A DNA stretch of 64,000 nt from Candidatus Methylomirabilota bacterium. GTDB taxonomy: Bacteria; Methylomirabilota; Methylomirabilia; Rokubacteriales; CSP1-6. The notes beneath the pieces are model-generated. The model searched no databases, was not told where the DNA came from, and worked only from the letters and a program-made list of their open reading frames with translations. The stretch lies in NCBI GenBank assembly GCA_036002485.1, contig DASYTI010000001.1, positions 1 to 64,000 on the forward strand, given 5' to 3'. Position 1 is the stretch's first letter, and each line of letters begins with the position of its first letter. Below are positions 204-59,525 of this stretch, piece after piece. The translations under genes were made by a program, and so were the position numbers.

Positions 204-279
204 TGGAGCCCATGTCCGGGATTGAACCGGAGACCTCGCCCTTACCAAGGGCGTGCTCTGCCAACTGAGCTACATGGGC
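204..279 (-). tRNA. tRNA-Thr (anticodon GGT)
   Basis: A 76-nt cloverleaf with the 3' CCA encoded in the DNA. Acceptor arms GCCCATG and CATGGGC pair, the D-loop and T-arm (GGTTCAATCC) are canonical, and the anticodon loop CTTGGTAAG gives GGT. It is the fourth tRNA of the cluster, 62 bp before tuf. Confidence 0.96.
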
Positions 280-338
280 GTGGATCACATGCCTCGTTGC
301 TTCTCCGGATGTCGGAAGCCCAGAGGCTGGAGCCCAAG

Positions 339-413
339 TGGAGCGGGAAACGGGATTCGAACCCGCGACCCCCAGCTTGGAAGGCTGGCGCTCTACCGCT
401 GAGCTATTCCCGC
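339..413 (-). tRNA. tRNA-Gly (anticodon TCC)
   Basis: A 75-nt cloverleaf with encoded CCA. The acceptor begins GCGGGAA and closes with TTCCCGC. The anticodon loop CTTCCAA carries TCC, between stems CCAGC and GCTGG. The T-arm contains GGTTCGAATCC. It is third in the tRNA cluster. Confidence 0.96.
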
Positions 414-449
414 ACTCCCTCTCGGCGCGAAACCCTTCGCCCCAGAAAA

Positions 450-535
450 TGGTGGGGAGAGGAGGATTCGAACCTCCGAAGGCGTTCGCCAGCAGATTTA
501 CAGTCTGCCCCCTTTGGCCACTTGGGTATCTCCCC
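450..535 (-). tRNA. tRNA-Tyr (anticodon GTA)
   Basis: An 86-nt class II tRNA with encoded CCA and a long variable arm (GGCGAACGCCTTC region), as expected for bacterial tRNA-Tyr. The acceptor begins GGGGAGA. The anticodon loop CTGTAAA carries GTA. It is second in the cluster. Confidence 0.96.
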
Positions 536-569
536 GCTGGTTCTTCAGACTGTAACCCCTTGAAATGTC

Positions 570-644
570 TGGCGCTGGCGGGAGGATTTGAACCCCCGAC
601 CCACTGCTTACAAGGCAGTTGCTCTACCCCTGAGCTACGCCAGC
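570..644 (-). tRNA. tRNA-Thr (anticodon TGT)
   Basis: A 75-nt cloverleaf with encoded CCA. The acceptor GCTGGCG pairs with CGCCAGC. The anticodon loop CTTGTAA carries TGT. It is the first tRNA of the cluster, about 8 nt after the predicted transcription start. Order Thr(TGT)-Tyr(GTA)-Gly(TCC)-Thr(GGT)-tuf matches the E. coli thrU-tyrU-glyT-thrT-tufB operon. Confidence 0.96.
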
Positions 645-5169: not shown

Positions 5170-6549
5170 TCACTCCCCGAGCAGTGTCTTGACCGCCTCG
5201 TCCACCGAGCCCACGCCCTGAACGGTAAGGGGATGCGTGGCTCCCGCCGCCGGATTCTTGCCGCCGAGATTGTTCTGGGGCACCACGGCGGTATCGAAGC
5301 CGAGGGCCGCCGCCTCCTTGAGCCGTGCCGTGAAGCCGGCCACCGCGCGCACCTCGCCGGTCAGCCCCACCTCGCCCATGATCACCACGTCGCCGCGGAC
5401 GGGCCGATCGAGGTAGCTCGAAGCTGCCGCGATGGCGATGCCGAGGTCGGAGGCCGGCTCGGTGACGCGCGCGCCTCCTGCCACGTTGACGAAGACATCC
5501 TGGCTCTGGAGCGGAAATCCCACCCGCTTCTCGAGCACGGCCAGGAGCAGGCAGACGCGATTGTAGTCGGCCCCCAGCACCGTACGTCGCGGCGTCCCGA
5601 AGCTGGCGGGCGTGACGAGGGCCTGTAGCTCGAGCAGGAGCGGCCGGGTGCCCTCGAGGCTCGAGACGATGACCGAGCCCGCGGCCCCACGCGGCCGCTC
5701 GGCGAGGAAGAAGCCGGACGGGTTCGACACCTCGGCCAGCCCCAGCTCACCCATCTCGAACACCCCGATCTCATTGGTCGACCCGAAGCGATTCTTGACG
5801 GCGCGGAGGATACGATAGGCGTGGTGCTGCTCGCCTTCGAAGTAGAGCACGGTGTCGACGAGATGCTCGAGAACGCGCGGTCCCGCGATGGCTCCGTCCT
5901 TGGTGACGTGACCGACGAGAAAGGCGGCCATGCCGCGGCTCTTGGCGAGGAGCATGAGGCGGGCGGCGCACTCGCGCACCTGGCTGACGCTGCCGGGCGC
6001 CGACTCGAGCCCGGGCAGAAAGACCGTCTGTATGGAGTCCACGATGAGCGCGCGCGGCCGGAGCTCAATCGCGTGCGCCTCGATGACCTGGAGATCCGTC
6101 TCCGCGAGGAAGTAGAGTCCCTTCGGCGCGATGCCGAGCCGATCGGCCCGCAGCTTGACCTGCGCCGCCGACTCCTCGCCCGAGACATAGAGCACCGGAC
6201 CCCGCCGCTCGGCGAGGGCCCGGCTAGCCTGGAGCAGGAGGGTGGACTTGCCGATACCGGGGTCACCTCCGATGAGGACCAGCGAGCCCGGCACCACGCC
6301 GCCCCCCAGGACGCGATCGAGCTCGCCGATGCCCGTGAGGATCCGCTCTCCCGCCTCGACGGCGATGTCGCCGATGGGCATGGGCTTGGCGCCCGCGGCC
6401 AGCTTGGGCCGTTCGGAGCGCGAGGCCAGAGGCCGCTCCTCGATCAGGGCGACGAAGCTTCCCATCCGGGCGCAATCAGGGCAGGTGCCGGGCTTCGGCG
6501 CTGCGAAGCCGCAGGTTTGACAGCGATAGATCGATCGCTCTTTTGCCAC
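5170..6549 (-). CDS. radA: DNA repair protein RadA (Sms)
   Basis: RecA-related ATPase that promotes branch migration in recombinational repair. The 459-residue protein has all family parts in order: C4 zinc finger (YRCQTCGFAAPKPGTCPDC), Walker A GGDPGIGKSTL near 94-104, the RadA-specific KNRFGSTNE, and a C-terminal Lon-like domain (VFVNVAGGARVTEPASDLG). The start codon is GTG at 6549, sharing one base with the stop of the preceding MCE gene. Confidence 0.96.
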   Translation of the reverse strand: MAKERSIYRCQTCGFAAPKPGTCPDCARMGSFVALIEERPLASRSERPKLAAGAKPMPIGDIAVEAGERILTGIGELDRVLGGGVVPGSLVLIGGDPGIGKSTLLLQASRALAERRGPVLYVSGEESAAQVKLRADRLGIAPKGLYFLAETDLQVIEAHAIELRPRALIVDSIQTVFLPGLESAPGSVSQVRECAARLMLLAKSRGMAAFLVGHVTKDGAIAGPRVLEHLVDTVLYFEGEQHHAYRILRAVKNRFGSTNEIGVFEMGELGLAEVSNPSGFFLAERPRGAAGSVIVSSLEGTRPLLLELQALVTPASFGTPRRTVLGADYNRVCLLLAVLEKRVGFPLQSQDVFVNVAGGARVTEPASDLGIAIAAASSYLDRPVRGDVVIMGEVGLTGEVRAVAGFTARLKEAAALGFDTAVVPQNNLGGKNPAAGATHPLTVQGVGSVDEAVKTLLGE

Positions 6550-14719: not shown

Positions 14720-14933
14720 CTCAGCCCTCGCCTCATCGCTCATCTACTCAGCCCTCGCCTCAGGGCCTCGCCCTTCAGCTCGAACTGCCACGCCTGCGGG
14801 ATCATCTGAGCCCTCGCCTCGCGGCTCCGCCGCTCAGCTCGAACATCGGGCCGCGCTTCGACTCGAACGATCTATTCAGCCCTCGCCTCATCGTGTTCCT
14901 CGCCATTGGCTCGTCACACGCTTCGGCTCGAAC
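14720..14933. repeat. Dispersed repeat family, cluster of about five units between hisG and hisD
   Basis: Contains a truncated unit at 14720-14740, short units at 14748-14785 (hairpin AGGGC-CTC-GCCCT) and 14807-14844 (GCGGC-TCC-GCCGC), a fragment at about 14846-14868 and a long-form unit at 14876-14933. Each short unit has the form TCAGCCCTCGCCTC, hairpin, TCAGCTCGAAC. The block 14720-14800, reverse complemented, resembles 57110-57180 and 25335-25410. Confidence 0.93.
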
Positions 14934-40018: not shown

Positions 40019-40172
40019 TCGGCCCTCGCCTCGGGGCGGCGCCCCTCAGCTCGAAATGCCACGCCCGAGGGAGAAGCCAGCCCGAGGCGTATCCATCTAT
40101 ACGTTGAGGGCTGGCGACGACAGAGAACGTGGCCCTTCGAGCTGAGCGGCCCCGCCGCGAGGCGAGGGCTGA
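40019..40172. repeat. Dispersed repeat family, composite inverted element with empty loop
   Basis: Left unit 40019-40056 (hairpin GGGGC-GGC-GCCCC) and right unit 40135-40172 (GCGGC-CCC-GCCGC) face each other. Inside them are the inverted pairs GCCACG/CGTGGC (40058-40063 and 40129-40134) and GCCAGCCC/GGGCTGGC (40076-40083 and 40108-40115). The centre is GAGGCGTA, TCCATCTA, TACGTTGAG. It lies between nuoN and the HAD phosphatase. Confidence 0.93.
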
Positions 40173-40208
40173 GTCGAATTGGCGAAGTAGATCGGCCCGG
40201 CACGGTTG

Positions 40209-45649: not shown

Positions 45650-45666
45650 GACTCTCGTCTCCTGAC

Positions 45667-45799
45667 TCAGCCCTCGGCTCGCGTCGCCGAGGGGCCGCCT
45701 CTCAGCTCGAAGAGCGGGCAGCGTCTCGGCTCGCACGACCCAGCCCTCGCCTCGCCGCTCTCCTCGCCTACGGCTCGTCGGCAGCGTCTTGGCTCGCAC
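45667..45799. repeat. Dispersed repeat family, cluster upstream of the small membrane protein gene
   Basis: A unit at 45667-45712 (TCAGCCCTCGGCTCGCG to CTCAGCTCGAAG), a fragment at about 45715-45736 (GCGTCTCGGCTCGCAC end) and a long-form unit at 45741-45799 resembling the 62-bp copies at 7728-7855. It separates the minus-strand block from the plus-strand peptidase gene. Confidence 0.9.
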
Positions 45800-54654: not shown

Positions 54655-55485
54655 TCACGAGGCCGGCTCTGCTCCAAAGCCCATGACGCGCGACAGCTCG
54701 CGCGCGCGCTCCATCACCAGGGCGCCCAGACGCTCCTGGTCAGCGGCCAGGCGCTTGCTCGGGCCGCCCACCACGAGCCCGGCGAGAAGCTCGCCGTGCC
54801 GGTCGAAGACGGGAGCGGCGATGCCGGCGGCGCCCTCGGCGATCTCATCCACGGAGATCGAGAGTCCCGCGGCGCGAATCTCCTCGATGGCGCGCCGCAG
54901 AGCGGTGCGCGTGACGGGTGTCTGGGGCGTGAAGGCCCGGAGCTTGGTCGTGCGCAGGTACTCGTGACGGCGGGTGGGCGGGAGGTGGGCGAGCAAGAGC
55001 TTGCCGATGGCCGAGCAATAGAGCGGACGGCGAAGGCCGAGAGGCGGCGTGTAGCGGATGGGATCCCGGCCATCCACCTTGTCGATGTAGACGGCCACGG
55101 GCTCATCGCTGGCCATGGTGGCGAGGAGCGCCGTCTCCCCGCTCTGCTCGGCGAGGTCTTCCAGGAAGGGACGCGCCAGCTGCGGGAGCTCGCGGTTGGA
55201 CAGGGCCGCCATGGCCAGCGTGAAGGCGGCGGGGCCCAGCTGATAGCGCCCATCGGAGCTTCTCACGAGGTAACCCAGCCGGGCCATGGGGCGAAGCAGG
55301 TAGAGCAGGCTGCTCTTCGGTGAGCCCAGCCGCTGGGAGAGCCCCGAGAGCGTCGCGCCATCCCGGCGCCTCGCCAGGGCTTCCAGCACCTCGAGGGCCC
55401 GGCCGAGGGCGCGGGGCCCCGCGTCCCGGCTGCGCGGACGCGGCGGCCCTGGGGTCGGTTCCCTCGTGATGGCGGCTATTCGCAT
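54655..55485 (-). CDS. IclR-family transcriptional regulator
   Basis: Probable regulator of the adjoining TRAP genes. The 276-residue protein has an N-terminal winged helix (about 28-90: ALEVLEALARRRDGATLSGL, SPKSSLLYLLRPM) and a C-terminal ligand-binding domain (about 105-270: YSAIGKLLLAHLP in the form CSAIGKLLLA, and VDEIAEGAAGIAAPVF). Ligand likely a carboxylic acid by family. It sits 121 bp upstream of dctQ in the same direction, and a palindrome just before its start may be its own operator. Confidence 0.9.
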   Translation of the reverse strand: MRIAAITREPTPGPPRPRSRDAGPRALGRALEVLEALARRRDGATLSGLSQRLGSPKSSLLYLLRPMARLGYLVRSSDGRYQLGPAAFTLAMAALSNRELPQLARPFLEDLAEQSGETALLATMASDEPVAVYIDKVDGRDPIRYTPPLGLRRPLYCSAIGKLLLAHLPPTRRHEYLRTTKLRAFTPQTPVTRTALRRAIEEIRAAGLSISVDEIAEGAAGIAAPVFDRHGELLAGLVVGGPSKRLAADQERLGALVMERARELSRVMGFGAEPAS

Positions 55486-55589: not shown

Positions 55590-55786
55590 TCAGCCCTCCC
55601 CTCGGGGCTGCGCCCCTCAGCTCGAACCGCCATGCCCGAGGGAGCCAGCAACGCGAGGCGTACGTGGCCCTTCGAGCTGAGGGCGAAGCCCGAGGCGAGG
55701 GCTGAGTGGATCGTACGTTGAGCGTTGCTGGCGACCGAGAACGTGGCATTTCGAGCTGAGCGGCCCGGCCGCGAGGTGAGGGCTGA
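55590..55786. repeat. Dispersed repeat family, composite element with a third unit nested in the loop
   Basis: Left unit 55590-55627 (hairpin GGGGC-TGC-GCCCC), right unit 55749-55786 (GCGGC-CCG-GCCGC), and a middle unit 55670-55705 (GGGC-GAA-GCCC). Inverted arms GCCAGCAACGC (55644-55654) and GCGTTGCTGGC (55722-55732) enclose the middle unit. Flanks GAGGCGTA and TACGTTGAG equal those of 40019-40172, where only 8 bp lie between them. Confidence 0.94.
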
Positions 55787-55822: not shown

Positions 55823-57019
55823 CTAGCGGAAGCCTTTGCTGAAGAGAGCGGCCGGGGGCACGAAATCCCCGAGAACGCCCATGAGCAGATCAAGGAGGGC
55901 GGGGCGACGCAGAAGCGCGTGCGCCGCGGCATTGGCGAGCCGGCGCCGCGCGATCACGAACTGGAGCGCGCGGGTGAGCCGCGCCTTGCCGCGGAAGTGC
56001 TCGCGGCGTGCCTCCGCATAGGGCCTGAGCGCGGATGCCTCGAGGGTGCCGCGCTCGATGGCGGCATGCGCCACCTCGGCCAGGAGCTCGGCGGATCGGA
56101 GCGCGGTGAAGATCCCCTCGCCCGTGAACGGGTCGTAGAAGCCCGTCGCGTCTCCGGCGAGCATGACGCCGCCCGCGCGCGGCTCCTTGACTCGATAGGC
56201 CAGCGGACCCATGGCCTGCAAGGCCCCCACCGGCTTCATCCCCTCGAGCCGCGCGGAGAGCCGCGGCAATTGCCGGAGGCGCGCATGGAAGAAAGTCTCG
56301 AGCCGGCCCGCGAAGGGCCTGGCATGCGCCAGGGGAACGACCAGGCCCAGGTTGACGAGACCGGGAGCCACGGGATTGAGAATGGCGTAGTCGGGCGGAT
56401 CGACGAAGATCTCTCCGCGCTCGTCGAAGCCGTCGAGCCCGGCCACGTGCTGGATGAGGGCCATGCGCCGGAGGCGGTGCGGGCGCAGGAGCCCCAGCGC
56501 CGCCGCCACGGCGGAAGCGCGGCCGTCGGCACCAATCACGAGCCGCGCGCGCAACTCGAGCGCCCGGCCCTCGGCATCCTGAGCCTGGACGCCCTTCACG
56601 TTGCTCCCCTCCCTCAGAAGGCCGGTGACGCGATGACGCTCTCGCACGTCCACGGGCAGGCTTCGCGCACGATCGACGAGGATCTGGTCCAGCCTCTCGC
56701 GGACAATGGCCAGCGCATGGTCCCGGTGACTGGGCCAGGGACCGGTGGTGGGATACGATCCCATGATGACCGTGCCGTCAGGCGCCACGATCTTCATGCC
56801 GCGCAGGGGCTGGGCGCCCGCCTCGTCGATCGCCTTGAGCACGCCCAGCCGGTCGAGAATGCGCGCGGACTCCGGCGAGAGGTACTCGCCGCAGATCTTG
56901 GGACGCGGGAAGGCGGCCTTGTCGAGCAGGGTCACGCTCCAGCCGCGCTCGGCCAGGAGAATCGCGGAGGCGGCCCCCGCGGGACCCGCGCCCACCACGA
57001 TCACGTCGCGCGCGCTCAT
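55823..57019 (-). CDS. FAD-dependent oxidoreductase (geranylgeranyl-reductase / aromatic hydroxylase type)
   Basis: A 398-residue flavoprotein: FAD loop VIVVGAGPAGAASAILLAERG, FPRPKICGEYLSPESARIL, second FAD motif LVIGADGRASAVAAALGL and GVMLAGDATGFYDPFTGEGIFTA. This group includes geranylgeranyl reductases and FAD monooxygenases. It is the last gene after a type III PKS and a methyltransferase, so a tailoring oxidation or reduction of the polyketide is likely. Start ATG 57019 overlaps the methyltransferase stop by 4 nt. Confidence 0.85.
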   Translation of the reverse strand: MSARDVIVVGAGPAGAASAILLAERGWSVTLLDKAAFPRPKICGEYLSPESARILDRLGVLKAIDEAGAQPLRGMKIVAPDGTVIMGSYPTTGPWPSHRDHALAIVRERLDQILVDRARSLPVDVRERHRVTGLLREGSNVKGVQAQDAEGRALELRARLVIGADGRASAVAAALGLLRPHRLRRMALIQHVAGLDGFDERGEIFVDPPDYAILNPVAPGLVNLGLVVPLAHARPFAGRLETFFHARLRQLPRLSARLEGMKPVGALQAMGPLAYRVKEPRAGGVMLAGDATGFYDPFTGEGIFTALRSAELLAEVAHAAIERGTLEASALRPYAEARREHFRGKARLTRALQFVIARRRLANAAAHALLRRPALLDLLMGVLGDFVPPAALFSKGFR

Positions 57020-57882
57020 GGCCGGGAAGTTCGAGCCGAGACGCTGCCCGCTGTTCGAGGCGAGGGGCGGCGCCTCGCCGACGCGAGCCGAGGGCTGAGT
57101 TGATCCCGCAGGCGTGGCAGTTCGAGCTGAAGGGCGAAGCCCTGAGGCGAGGGCTGAGTAGATGAGCGGCGAGGCGAGTGCTGGGTCGTGGTCCTGACGG
57201 CGCAGAGACGCAAGGCCCAGGCGTGGCGATGCACGCGCACGTCGGCGAGATCGGCGCGCCGGGCGAGGGACTCGACCTCGCCGAGGGTATAGGCGCGCCG
57301 GACGGACATGGGCCCGTCGTGGCGGGACATGCGGTTCCTGGCCAGGAGCCGCGTGGTCAGCCAGACCACGGCATGGGCCAGGCGGCTCCGGAAGAGATCA
57401 TTGGCCACGAGACCCCGCCGGGCGGCGCGATCCATCTCGGCGAGGGAGACCGCGGCCTCGGCGGGCGGCAGGTGATGGAGCACGAGGGCGGAGATGGCCA
57501 CGTCCACCGAGCACGGCCGCACGGGGAGGGCGAGGGCGTCGCCGCGGACCAGCGTGACCTCGGGATAGCCGGCCATCCGAAGGGCGGCCGCGCGGAGCGT
57601 CTCGCCATCGCGATCCAGCGCGAAGATCCGGATGGAGCGACCCGCGCGGCGCGCCCACCGCACGAGCGCGCGCGGGATATCGCCGCCCCCGGTGCCCACG
57701 TCGAGGACGGTCACGCGGCGATCACGCGGCAGGTCCGCGACGAGGCGTTTCACGTGACGCATGGTCAGCCGGGCTCCGCCGAAGAAGGCATTGAAGCGCG
57801 CGATGTCGTCCAGGTTCTGGGAGAGGTCGGCGAAGGGCGCAGGCCGGTCGAGCATCTCGACGGCGTCGTGCGCGCGCTCCAT
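57016..57882 (-). CDS. SAM-dependent methyltransferase with a repeat-encoded C-terminal tail
   Basis: A 288-residue protein from the Met at 57882 (MERAHDAVEM). The class I fold shows SAM loop VLDVGTGGGDIPRALVRW, FALDRDGETLRAAA and VDVAISALVLHHLPP. Probably O- or C-methylates the product of the adjoining type III PKS. Homology appears to end near residue 234 (CAVRTTTQ); the last 54 residues (HSPRRSSTQPS onward) are translated from the dispersed repeat 57030-57183. Upstream Met at 57924 would overlap the PKS gene by 32 nt and is less likely. Confidence 0.83.
   Translation of the reverse strand: MERAHDAVEMLDRPAPFADLSQNLDDIARFNAFFGGARLTMRHVKRLVADLPRDRRVTVLDVGTGGGDIPRALVRWARRAGRSIRIFALDRDGETLRAAALRMAGYPEVTLVRGDALALPVRPCSVDVAISALVLHHLPPAEAAVSLAEMDRAARRGLVANDLFRSRLAHAVVWLTTRLLARNRMSRHDGPMSVRRAYTLGEVESLARRADLADVRVHRHAWALRLCAVRTTTQHSPRRSSTQPSPQGFALQLELPRLRDQLSPRLASARRRPSPRTAGSVSARTSRP
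57030..57183. repeat. Dispersed repeat family, long composite copy inside the methyltransferase 3' end
   Basis: From GTTCGAGCCGAGACGCTGCC through a 43-bp block shared exactly with 49729-49771 to a short unit at 57120-57157 (hairpin AGGGC-GAA-GCCCT) and a terminal arm GAGCGGCGAGGCGAGTGCTG. It contains no stop in the methyltransferase frame over its whole length. Confidence 0.94.
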
Positions 57883-57892
57883 GGGCAGCCCG

Positions 57893-58918
57893 CTACCAGC
57901 GAAGTAGCGCGCCTTCGGCGGCAAACCCCGGGCCGAGGGCGATCATGAGCCCCCAGTCGCCGGGCACGGGCTGGCCCGAGCGCAGAGTCTCTTCGAGCAC
58001 GAAGACCACGGTGGCCGAGGACATGTTGCCGAGATGGCGCAAGACGTGGCGCGAGTGGGCGATCTGCGACTCGTCGAGGTCGAGGAGCCGGCGCGCCTGC
58101 TCGATCACGCGGCGGCCCGCCGAGTGGAGGACGAAGTGACGCACGTCCTCCTTCTTGAGCCCCTGCGAGTCCATGAGGAGATCGGCCATCTCTTTCATCA
58201 TGGCGGCGCCGATGCGCCGCACGTCCTTGGAGAGGACGACCCGCGGCCGGCCGCCGGGAAACTCGAAGCCCATGGCCCCGAGGTGCTCGGAGCGAAAGAG
58301 GCTCTGATGGCAGACGATGACGGGGCCATCGCCCTCCCCGGCGATGGCCATGGCCCCCGCCCCATCGGCGAAGATGGCATGGGCCACCGCGCTCTCGAGC
58401 CGGTCGTCGAGGAAGTACGCCGTCGAGCAGATCTCCACGGCCACCACCACCGCGCGGTGCCGCGGAAAGGCCTGCACGTGATTGTGGGCCTGCTCGAGGG
58501 CGACCATGGCGCTGGCGCAGCCCGTGTCGCCCACGTGGACGCGCTGGGTCCCGGCTTTGAGGCCGAGGGTGGCGATGAGGTGCGCGTCGAGGCTCGGGCA
58601 CAACCGGCCCGTGCACGTCGTGGTGGCGAGGAAGTCCACCTCGGCGAGATCCCATCCCGCCCGCTCCACCACGCGCCGGACGGCCTCCGCTCCTAGTTCA
58701 ATAGCGCCACGGCGGAAGCGCTCGCCGAGCTCGTCCACGCTCTCGCCCGGCGTGAACGTCTCGGGATCGAGGTAGAGATAGCGCCCGTCGATCTCGCTGT
58801 TGGCGAAGAAACCGGCGCGGCGCGGATCCTCGTAGCCGGCCATGCGGAGGAGCGTCGTCTGGTCGAAGCGGTGGCGGGGCGTGGCCGTCGACACCGCGAC
58901 GATTCTCGGCGTCCCCAT
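57893..58918 (-). CDS. Type III polyketide synthase (chalcone/stilbene synthase family)
   Basis: Condenses an acyl-CoA starter with malonyl-CoA units using a single Cys active site. The 341-residue protein has the full triad: Cys134 in GDTGCASAM, His265 in FVLHSAGRR and Asn298 in RHLGNMSSAT. The C-terminal GPGFAAEGALLRW matches the family GFGPG loop as LGPGFAAE. It is shorter than plant enzymes (about 390). Followed by methyltransferase and FAD oxidoreductase genes, a grouping like the srsABC-type alkylresorcinol/quinone operons. Starter and product unknown. Confidence 0.92.
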   Translation of the reverse strand: MGTPRIVAVSTATPRHRFDQTTLLRMAGYEDPRRAGFFANSEIDGRYLYLDPETFTPGESVDELGERFRRGAIELGAEAVRRVVERAGWDLAEVDFLATTTCTGRLCPSLDAHLIATLGLKAGTQRVHVGDTGCASAMVALEQAHNHVQAFPRHRAVVVAVEICSTAYFLDDRLESAVAHAIFADGAGAMAIAGEGDGPVIVCHQSLFRSEHLGAMGFEFPGGRPRVVLSKDVRRIGAAMMKEMADLLMDSQGLKKEDVRHFVLHSAGRRVIEQARRLLDLDESQIAHSRHVLRHLGNMSSATVVFVLEETLRSGQPVPGDWGLMIALGPGFAAEGALLRW

Positions 58919-59000: not shown

Positions 59001-59525
59001 ATGCCGCTCTTCGCCTTCGAAGGCAAGTCACCGCGCGTGCATCCGACCGCGTTCATCGCCCCCACCGCCGTCCTCATCGGGGACGTCATCGTCGAGGAGA
59101 ATGCCTCGGTGTGGTACAACGCCGTCGTCCGTGCCGACTTCTCGCCCATCATCATCCGCCGCGGCGCCAACGTCCAGGACTGCGCGGTCATCCACGTCAC
59201 CCCGGCCGGCGGCACCGATGTCGGCGCGGGGGCGACCGTCGGTCATCTCTGTCTGGTCCACCAGGCCACCCTCGGAGAGGAATGCCTGGTCGGCAATGGC
59301 TCGACGGTGCTCGACGGCGTGAAGATCGGCGTGCGCGCCATGATCGGCGCGGGCTCGCTCGTCACGCCCGGCACCGAGATCCCCGACGGCGTGCTCGCCC
59401 TGGGCTCCCCCTGCAAGGTCAGGGGCCCGCTCGCGGGGACGCCCGCCGAGCGCTGGGTGGCCATGAACCCGAAGGGCTACCAGGCGCTTGCCCAGCGGCA
59501 TCGCGTCGGCGTCTCGCCGGCCTGA
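59001..59525 (+). CDS. Gamma-class carbonic anhydrase-like hexapeptide protein (YrdA/PaaY type)
   Basis: A 174-residue left-handed beta-helix with repeating [IV]GxG hexapeptides. Zinc ligands of the gamma class are present: His65 (CAVIHVT), His82 and His87 (TVGHLCLVHQ). The Cam proton-shuttle glutamate loop is absent, as in most YrdA-type members, so carbonic anhydrase activity is uncertain. ATG at 59001 has AGGAG 6-7 nt upstream. Divergent from the PKS gene with an 82-bp shared region. Confidence 0.87.
   Translation: MPLFAFEGKSPRVHPTAFIAPTAVLIGDVIVEENASVWYNAVVRADFSPIIIRRGANVQDCAVIHVTPAGGTDVGAGATVGHLCLVHQATLGEECLVGNGSTVLDGVKIGVRAMIGAGSLVTPGTEIPDGVLALGSPCKVRGPLAGTPAERWVAMNPKGYQALAQRHRVGVSPA

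Follow-up and report, generated by a model that had tools for sequence, protein, structure and literature searches.

A type III polyketide synthase, methyltransferase and flavoenzyme gene trio kept across Methylomirabilota, with a predicted phenolic lipid product

The gene trio and its locus

The window analysed here is a stretch of 64,000 nt from a Candidatus Methylomirabilota bacterium (positions 1 to 64,000, forward strand, of contig DASYTI010000001.1, assembly GCA_036002485.1). Near its end, on the minus strand, lie three genes encoding a type III polyketide synthase (PKS), a class-I S-adenosylmethionine (SAM)-dependent methyltransferase (MT) and a flavin adenine dinucleotide (FAD)-dependent oxidoreductase (Table 1). 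A first-pass annotation, made from the sequence, had described them as a tightly spaced operon, and all three genes were indeed found intact at this place, the PKS and MT genes being separated by 10 nt and the MT and FAD genes overlapping by 4 nt. The list of open reading frames (ORFs) started the MT at a TTG (57924) that falls within the PKS gene; since conservation favours the ATG given in Table 1, the start was set there.

Pfam domains over their cut-offs were Chal_sti_synt_C, Chal_sti_synt_N and ACP_syn_III_C for the PKS, Methyltransf_25 and Methyltransf_11 for the MT, and FAD_binding_3 for the FAD protein. Residues 2-234 of the MT matched the NF004851 (PRK06202) profile with 156.6 bits, under its cut-off of 243. 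When compared with the sister genome G057, dN/dS was 0.09 for the PKS, 0.24 for the shared part of the MT and 0.15 for the FAD gene; the three frames are therefore constrained genes, all under purifying selection, rather than chance ORFs.

Table 1. Features of the window at and around the trio, with their coordinates.
Feature	Position	Strand	Remarks
Type III PKS	57893..58918	minus	341 aa; triad Cys134-His265-Asn298; Phe218; HSAG for HPGG
Class-I SAM methyltransferase (MT)	57016..57882	minus	288 aa; ATG 57882; about the last 55 residues from inserted repeat
FAD-dependent oxidoreductase	55823..57019	minus	398 aa; geranylgeranyl-reductase / flavin-halogenase / monooxygenase fold; without halogenase WxWxIP motif
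165-nt repeat insertion in MT 3' end	57023..57187 (about)	minus	absent from sister genome G057 (L051)
Hexapeptide-repeat gene	59001..59525	plus	divergent to PKS; PKS neighbour in most Rokubacteria loci
IclR-type regulator	54655..55485	minus	downstream of the trio
Four clustered tRNA genes	204..644	minus	Thr, Gly, Tyr, Thr

Two neighbouring genes flank the trio. The divergent hexapeptide-repeat gene, which we take to be gamma-carbonic-anhydrase-like, is not thought to be a member of the pathway. The IclR-type regulator was found near the trio in genus mates only (L049, L051 and L052), and is therefore probably outside the operon.

Conservation across the phylum

The distribution of the trio was examined in 95 Methylomirabilota genomes (Rokubacteria and NC10), 53 of which we call good (completeness ≥90, contamination ≤5). 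At an ortholog threshold of ≥55% identity, the PKS was present in 76 of the 95 genomes and in 49 of the good ones. An initial tally of 78 (51 good) had taken in G010 and G014, whose PKSs are only 30% identical, and both were removed. The MT was found in 75 genomes (49 good) and the FAD gene in 75 (50 good), counting the best match per genome and excluding as paralogs FAD matches weaker than E 1e-44, which would otherwise have raised the FAD count to 80. All three orthologs occurred together in 71 genomes (47 good), and formed a colinear PKS-MT-FAD trio in 65 (44 good). The PKS and MT genes shared a contig in 73 genomes, and in 72 of them they lay less than 1 kb apart on the same strand; the exception was G065, in which the PKS match is broken in two and the MT match follows at a distance of 2.1 kb. 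The good genomes without the PKS were G088, G010 and G014, which keep the FAD gene, and G020, which has none of the three. In G010 and G014 the FAD gene is 40-41% identical, and the distant type III PKS stands elsewhere in the genome. Second, distant type III PKSs were also seen in two other genomes (G048:C71:48400-49437, 37% identical, and G079:C6:64927-65970, 35%). As a control, any relative detected by the PKS profile at E≤1e-25 was present in 78 of 195 Planctomycetota genomes, a patchy distribution unlike that of Methylomirabilota.

A scan of a genome collection with the phylum alignment, which used two peptide patterns and would miss relatives lacking them, took the best 80 of 106 candidates and kept 79 loci. 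Fifty-eight of these belonged to the phylum and were 55-96% identical; beyond it, identity dropped to ≤36% in Planctomycetota, Kiritimatiellota, Spirochaetota and others. No PKS was found in viral contigs, and the 176 plasmid records matching the PKS were all under 60% identity, the best reaching 33%.

Each of the three proteins formed a clade exclusive to the phylum. In a PKS tree of 63 rows, from which outgroup PKS rows of ≤280 aa were left out, the 26 phylum rows grouped together with a support of 100/99, and eight group labels cost 7 changes on this tree, the minimum possible. The corresponding supports were 94/87 for the MT tree, drawn from the same number of phylum loci, and 98/97 for the FAD tree, which drew on 19 loci after leaving out rows of ≤300 aa and loci lacking a complete FAD gene. 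Of the 58 phylum loci kept by the scan, 38 had the hexapeptide-repeat gene next to the PKS (L095, at 31%, was not counted). Because of these exclusive clades, the agreement of the PKS tree with taxonomy and this conserved neighbour, we read the trio as probably inherited vertically, its locus being fixed in Rokubacteria, rather than as a recent transfer.

At least 7 of the 58 loci have a YceI-family gene, presumably of a lipid-binding family, immediately preceding the FAD gene. In NC10 families it lies between the MT and FAD genes (L037:2315-2968, L035:5026-5661, L087, L090, L091, L092, L095, L096 and L101); the window's trio has no such gene at that position.

The first-pass annotation had expected an unusual product from an odd lineage. 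The trio turned out instead to be near-universal in the phylum, which favours a core role.

Known trios and the features of the polyketide synthase

The PKS-MT-FAD trio is already a known kind, and it is its phylum-wide, vertically kept distribution that is new. The kinship with srs, pkq and hid operons, also proposed in the first-pass annotation, held: three homologous genes are clustered, srs, pkq and hid being likened by description. Among 21 loci of other phyla in the genome scan, 19 had an MT homolog no more than about 1.5 kb from the PKS, and one of the two exceptions is a 3.9-kb contig. The cyanobacterial hidABC cluster, for hierridin, has the order hidC>hidA>hidB, that is, PKS>MT>FAD, according to passages of PMC8086630. 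The pkqABC and srsABC operons of Mycobacterium and Streptomyces share the order PKS, MT and oxidoreductase as described in part of PMC9927152, and passages of that paper and of PMC5916927 report that a similar trio makes a polyketide quinone in M. smegmatis and Streptomyces, and that such quinones carry electrons in low oxygen. Deinococcus radiodurans, Mesorhizobium sp. and Caballeronia sp. have plasmids with trios annotated in the PKS-MT-FAD order; unlike in the phylum trios, their PKSs are about 29-30% identical, and the Caballeronia and Mesorhizobium MTs fall on a far branch.

The Planctomycetota operon has the order MT-FAD-PKS, as in Paludisphaera. Passages of PMC10896814 count 58 such operons among 131 species, and state that Planctomycete PKSs of these trios make alkylresorcinols and that the G. 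maris genes add one methyl. Its genes are homologous to those described here, the MT being 31-42% identical and the FAD protein sharing the GDAxGxxxPxTGEG stretch, whereas its PKS is 27-38% identical and belongs to another clade.

As the first-pass annotation had noted, the PKS carries an intact catalytic triad, and its three residues are invariant in 50 of 50 aligned rows (some genomes entered twice), in which the LGPGF stretch is near invariant. The AlphaFold model of the PKS had a mean pLDDT of 92.3, and all 50 listed fold matches were type III PKSs. The best match in the PDB, both by fold (TM 0.93) and by sequence, was Pks11, which is 29% identical and falls in another clade. The LGPGF stretch and the fold matches identify a type III PKS rather than a beta-ketoacyl-acyl carrier protein synthase III (KAS III) fold, although in Pfam ACP_syn_III_C outscores Chal_sti_synt_C on this protein.

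Phe218 of the PKS aligns with Trp230 of Pks11 and Trp281 of ArsB, which passages of PMC5916927 give as one position. Trp at this position is tied to resorcinol closure, and a pyrone former has Gly there, as stated in part of PMC6274091. The residue was Phe in 26 of 26 phylum rows, and also in Caballeronia, whereas all 16 Planctomycete rows and the rows of DpgA (3,5-dihydroxyphenylacetyl-CoA synthase) have Trp; the Trp of an ArsB-like alkylresorcinol synthase is thus missing from the phylum enzymes. HidC-type enzymes differ at the Phe265 position of chalcone synthase (CHS), in the wording of a passage of PMC8086630. The histidine loop reads HSAG in the phylum PKSs, HPGG in most relatives and HSGG in DpgA. 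As judged from the alignments, the active site of the phylum PKS clade has a set of invariant letters of its own, Phe218 and HSAG.

Predicted product and competing readings

From these features we infer the substrates, the order of the reactions, the product and the role of the trio. The PKS would load a fatty acyl thioester onto Cys134, add malonyl units and then close an aromatic, resorcinol-type ring; the MT would methylate a carbon or oxygen of this ring, which the FAD enzyme would hydroxylate or oxidise. The product, an alkyl (hydro)quinone or a methylated alkylresorcinol, would reside in the membrane as a core lipid, and might serve as an auxiliary redox carrier, as the mycobacterial polyketide quinone does. 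We prefer to read the trio as an operon that is inherited vertically throughout the phylum and makes a methylated, oxidised phenolic lipid, and our confidence in this reading is evenly divided. A core lipid seems most likely, given that the phylum makes menaquinone and that almost all of its good genomes keep the trio. MqnC of menaquinone synthesis was over its cut-off in 72 of the 95 phylum genomes, and ubiA_proteo in none of them, and therefore menaquinone would be accompanied by a second quinone, as in the actinobacteria mentioned above. The best MqnC of the window's own genome had 345 bits against a cut-off of 428, perhaps owing to an assembly gap. We also counted for the lipid, as suggested by the model, that the closest fold is Pks11, a long-chain acyl enzyme, and the YceI-family neighbour.

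Three points weigh against this proposal. By sequence, the PKS appears closest to DpgA, whose starter is malonyl-CoA and not a fatty acid. The Trp linked to resorcinol closure is replaced by Phe throughout the phylum rows, an aromatic residue still being kept. Finally, G010 and G014 lack both the PKS and MT orthologs, and G020 the whole trio, and thus the pathway is not strictly indispensable.

The first of these points leads to an alternative that is rather unlikely, namely that the PKS is DpgA-like, with a malonyl-CoA starter, and that the MT and FAD enzyme give a small methylated phenol or quinone instead of a lipid. DpgA was the closest clade to the phylum PKSs in two trees, with the moderate supports of 96/93 and then 94/87; the second tree had other rows, since eight long or near-duplicate ones were dropped (PhlD-like, CylI, L111, L112, L118, L120, L124 and L128). 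DpgA also has a similar HS(A/G)G loop, and its NCBIfam model (NF042429) was the best for the phylum PKS, at 228.8 bits (237.9 for L032) against 107.5-165.8 for five other non-DpgA type III PKSs. However, the cut-off of this model is 425 and a true DpgA scores 643.7, inspection by eye of the ORFs listed around L032 showed no dpgB or dpgC, and the MT, FAD and YceI neighbours point to lipids. Although the phylum PKSs branch apart from both the Planctomycete trio clade and the Pks11 clade, approximately unbiased (AU) tests rejected neither joining them to the former (p 0.097) nor to the latter (p 0.203), and none of the four arrangements compared settled the deep placement. Because the support for DpgA is moderate and the AU tests are non-rejecting, we claim neither a resolved origin nor a starter length for the PKS. 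The comparison with ArsB, BpsA, SrsA and PKS18 types suggested by the first-pass annotation thus gave a partial answer: the phylum PKSs form their own clade with DpgA closest, and are not clearly of the ArsB, SrsA or PKS18 type, the sequences of SrsA, PkqA, ArsB/C, HidC, FtpA and BpsA being outside the trees.

It is improbable, too, that the PKS makes a long-chain alkyl-alpha-pyrone that is methylated afterwards, in the manner of Pks11 or ArsC. Pks11, its best PDB match, is deposited as an alpha-pyrone synthase, and Phe218 takes the place of the Trp of resorcinol formers; nevertheless, the switch position is still aromatic, unlike the Gly of the pyrone former in the passage of PMC6274091, and an adjoining FAD ring oxidase would suit a phenol better than a pyrone.

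A different doubt concerns the integrity of the operon, which the first-pass annotation had thought to be under change. Its claim that the MT tail derives from a repeat was confirmed by the comparison with the sister genome. The insertion lies directly before the MT stop and carries two copies of the 16-mer ACTCAGCCCTCGNCTC (57085-57100 and 57144-57159), a member of a dispersed repeat family that also occurs in the window at 14746-14761, 40159-40174, 45665-45680 and 55692-55707. The window's genome holds 193 occurrences of this 16-mer and none of its reversed control; a 24-base form of the repeat, present in this genome, was absent from four genus mates. A hairpin was considered and discarded, because the folding of the inserted strand was not better than that of shuffled versions (z 0.22). 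In G057 a different insertion, of 141 nt, separates the PKS and MT genes (L051, about 5926-6066), so the junctions of the operon seem to tolerate insertions. These two insertions could be taken as signs of a decaying operon, in which the repeat would have impaired the MT or the coupling between the MT and FAD genes. We consider such decay very improbable, since the insertion is in frame (165 nt = 3 x 55), lies past the last conserved MT residues and keeps the stop codon and the overlap with the FAD start, and given the dN/dS values of the three genes. Since all three frames are open across the insertion, the intact MT frame is by itself no proof of function (1 chance in 3).

As for the FAD protein, also examined through a predicted model, flavin halogenases (ChlB4, Bmp2, PltA and others) head its matches both by fold and by sequence, and yet a halogenated phenol is hardly credible as a product and the halogenase identity was rejected, because the WxWxIP motif, present in the five halogenases aligned for comparison, is missing from all 41 trio-neighbour FAD proteins. 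At this site the protein has YxILNP instead, and its I213, N215 and P216 are shared by all 29 phylum rows. The geranylgeranyl reductase family TIGR02032 gave 144.2 bits, under its cut-off of 158.8. On these sequence grounds we regard the protein as probably oxidising or hydroxylating the phenol ring, although it could conceivably be a reductase.

Among open-licence PMC papers we found none joining Methylomirabilota with a type III polyketide, or Methylomirabilis with an alkylresorcinol. The phenolic lipid predicted here would be an undescribed one in Rokubacteria and Methylomirabilis enrichments, open to direct search there. More tentatively, and with considerable doubt, the trio may make an ancestral, phylum-defining polyketide (hydro)quinone throughout Methylomirabilota, the nitrite-dependent methanotroph Methylomirabilis included; a phylum-specific PKS with its own cyclisation pocket would then supply respiration with a further electron carrier in addition to menaquinone, and the phylum with a lipid biomarker. 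The invariant Phe at the Trp switch offers a natural clade for testing the cyclisation rule of type III PKSs. Operons of these enzymes are usually viewed as patchy secondary metabolism, and the colinearity of the trio in most good genomes of Methylomirabilota argues for a core role, so that the molecule may be a basic component of the membrane or of respiration and not an optional extra.

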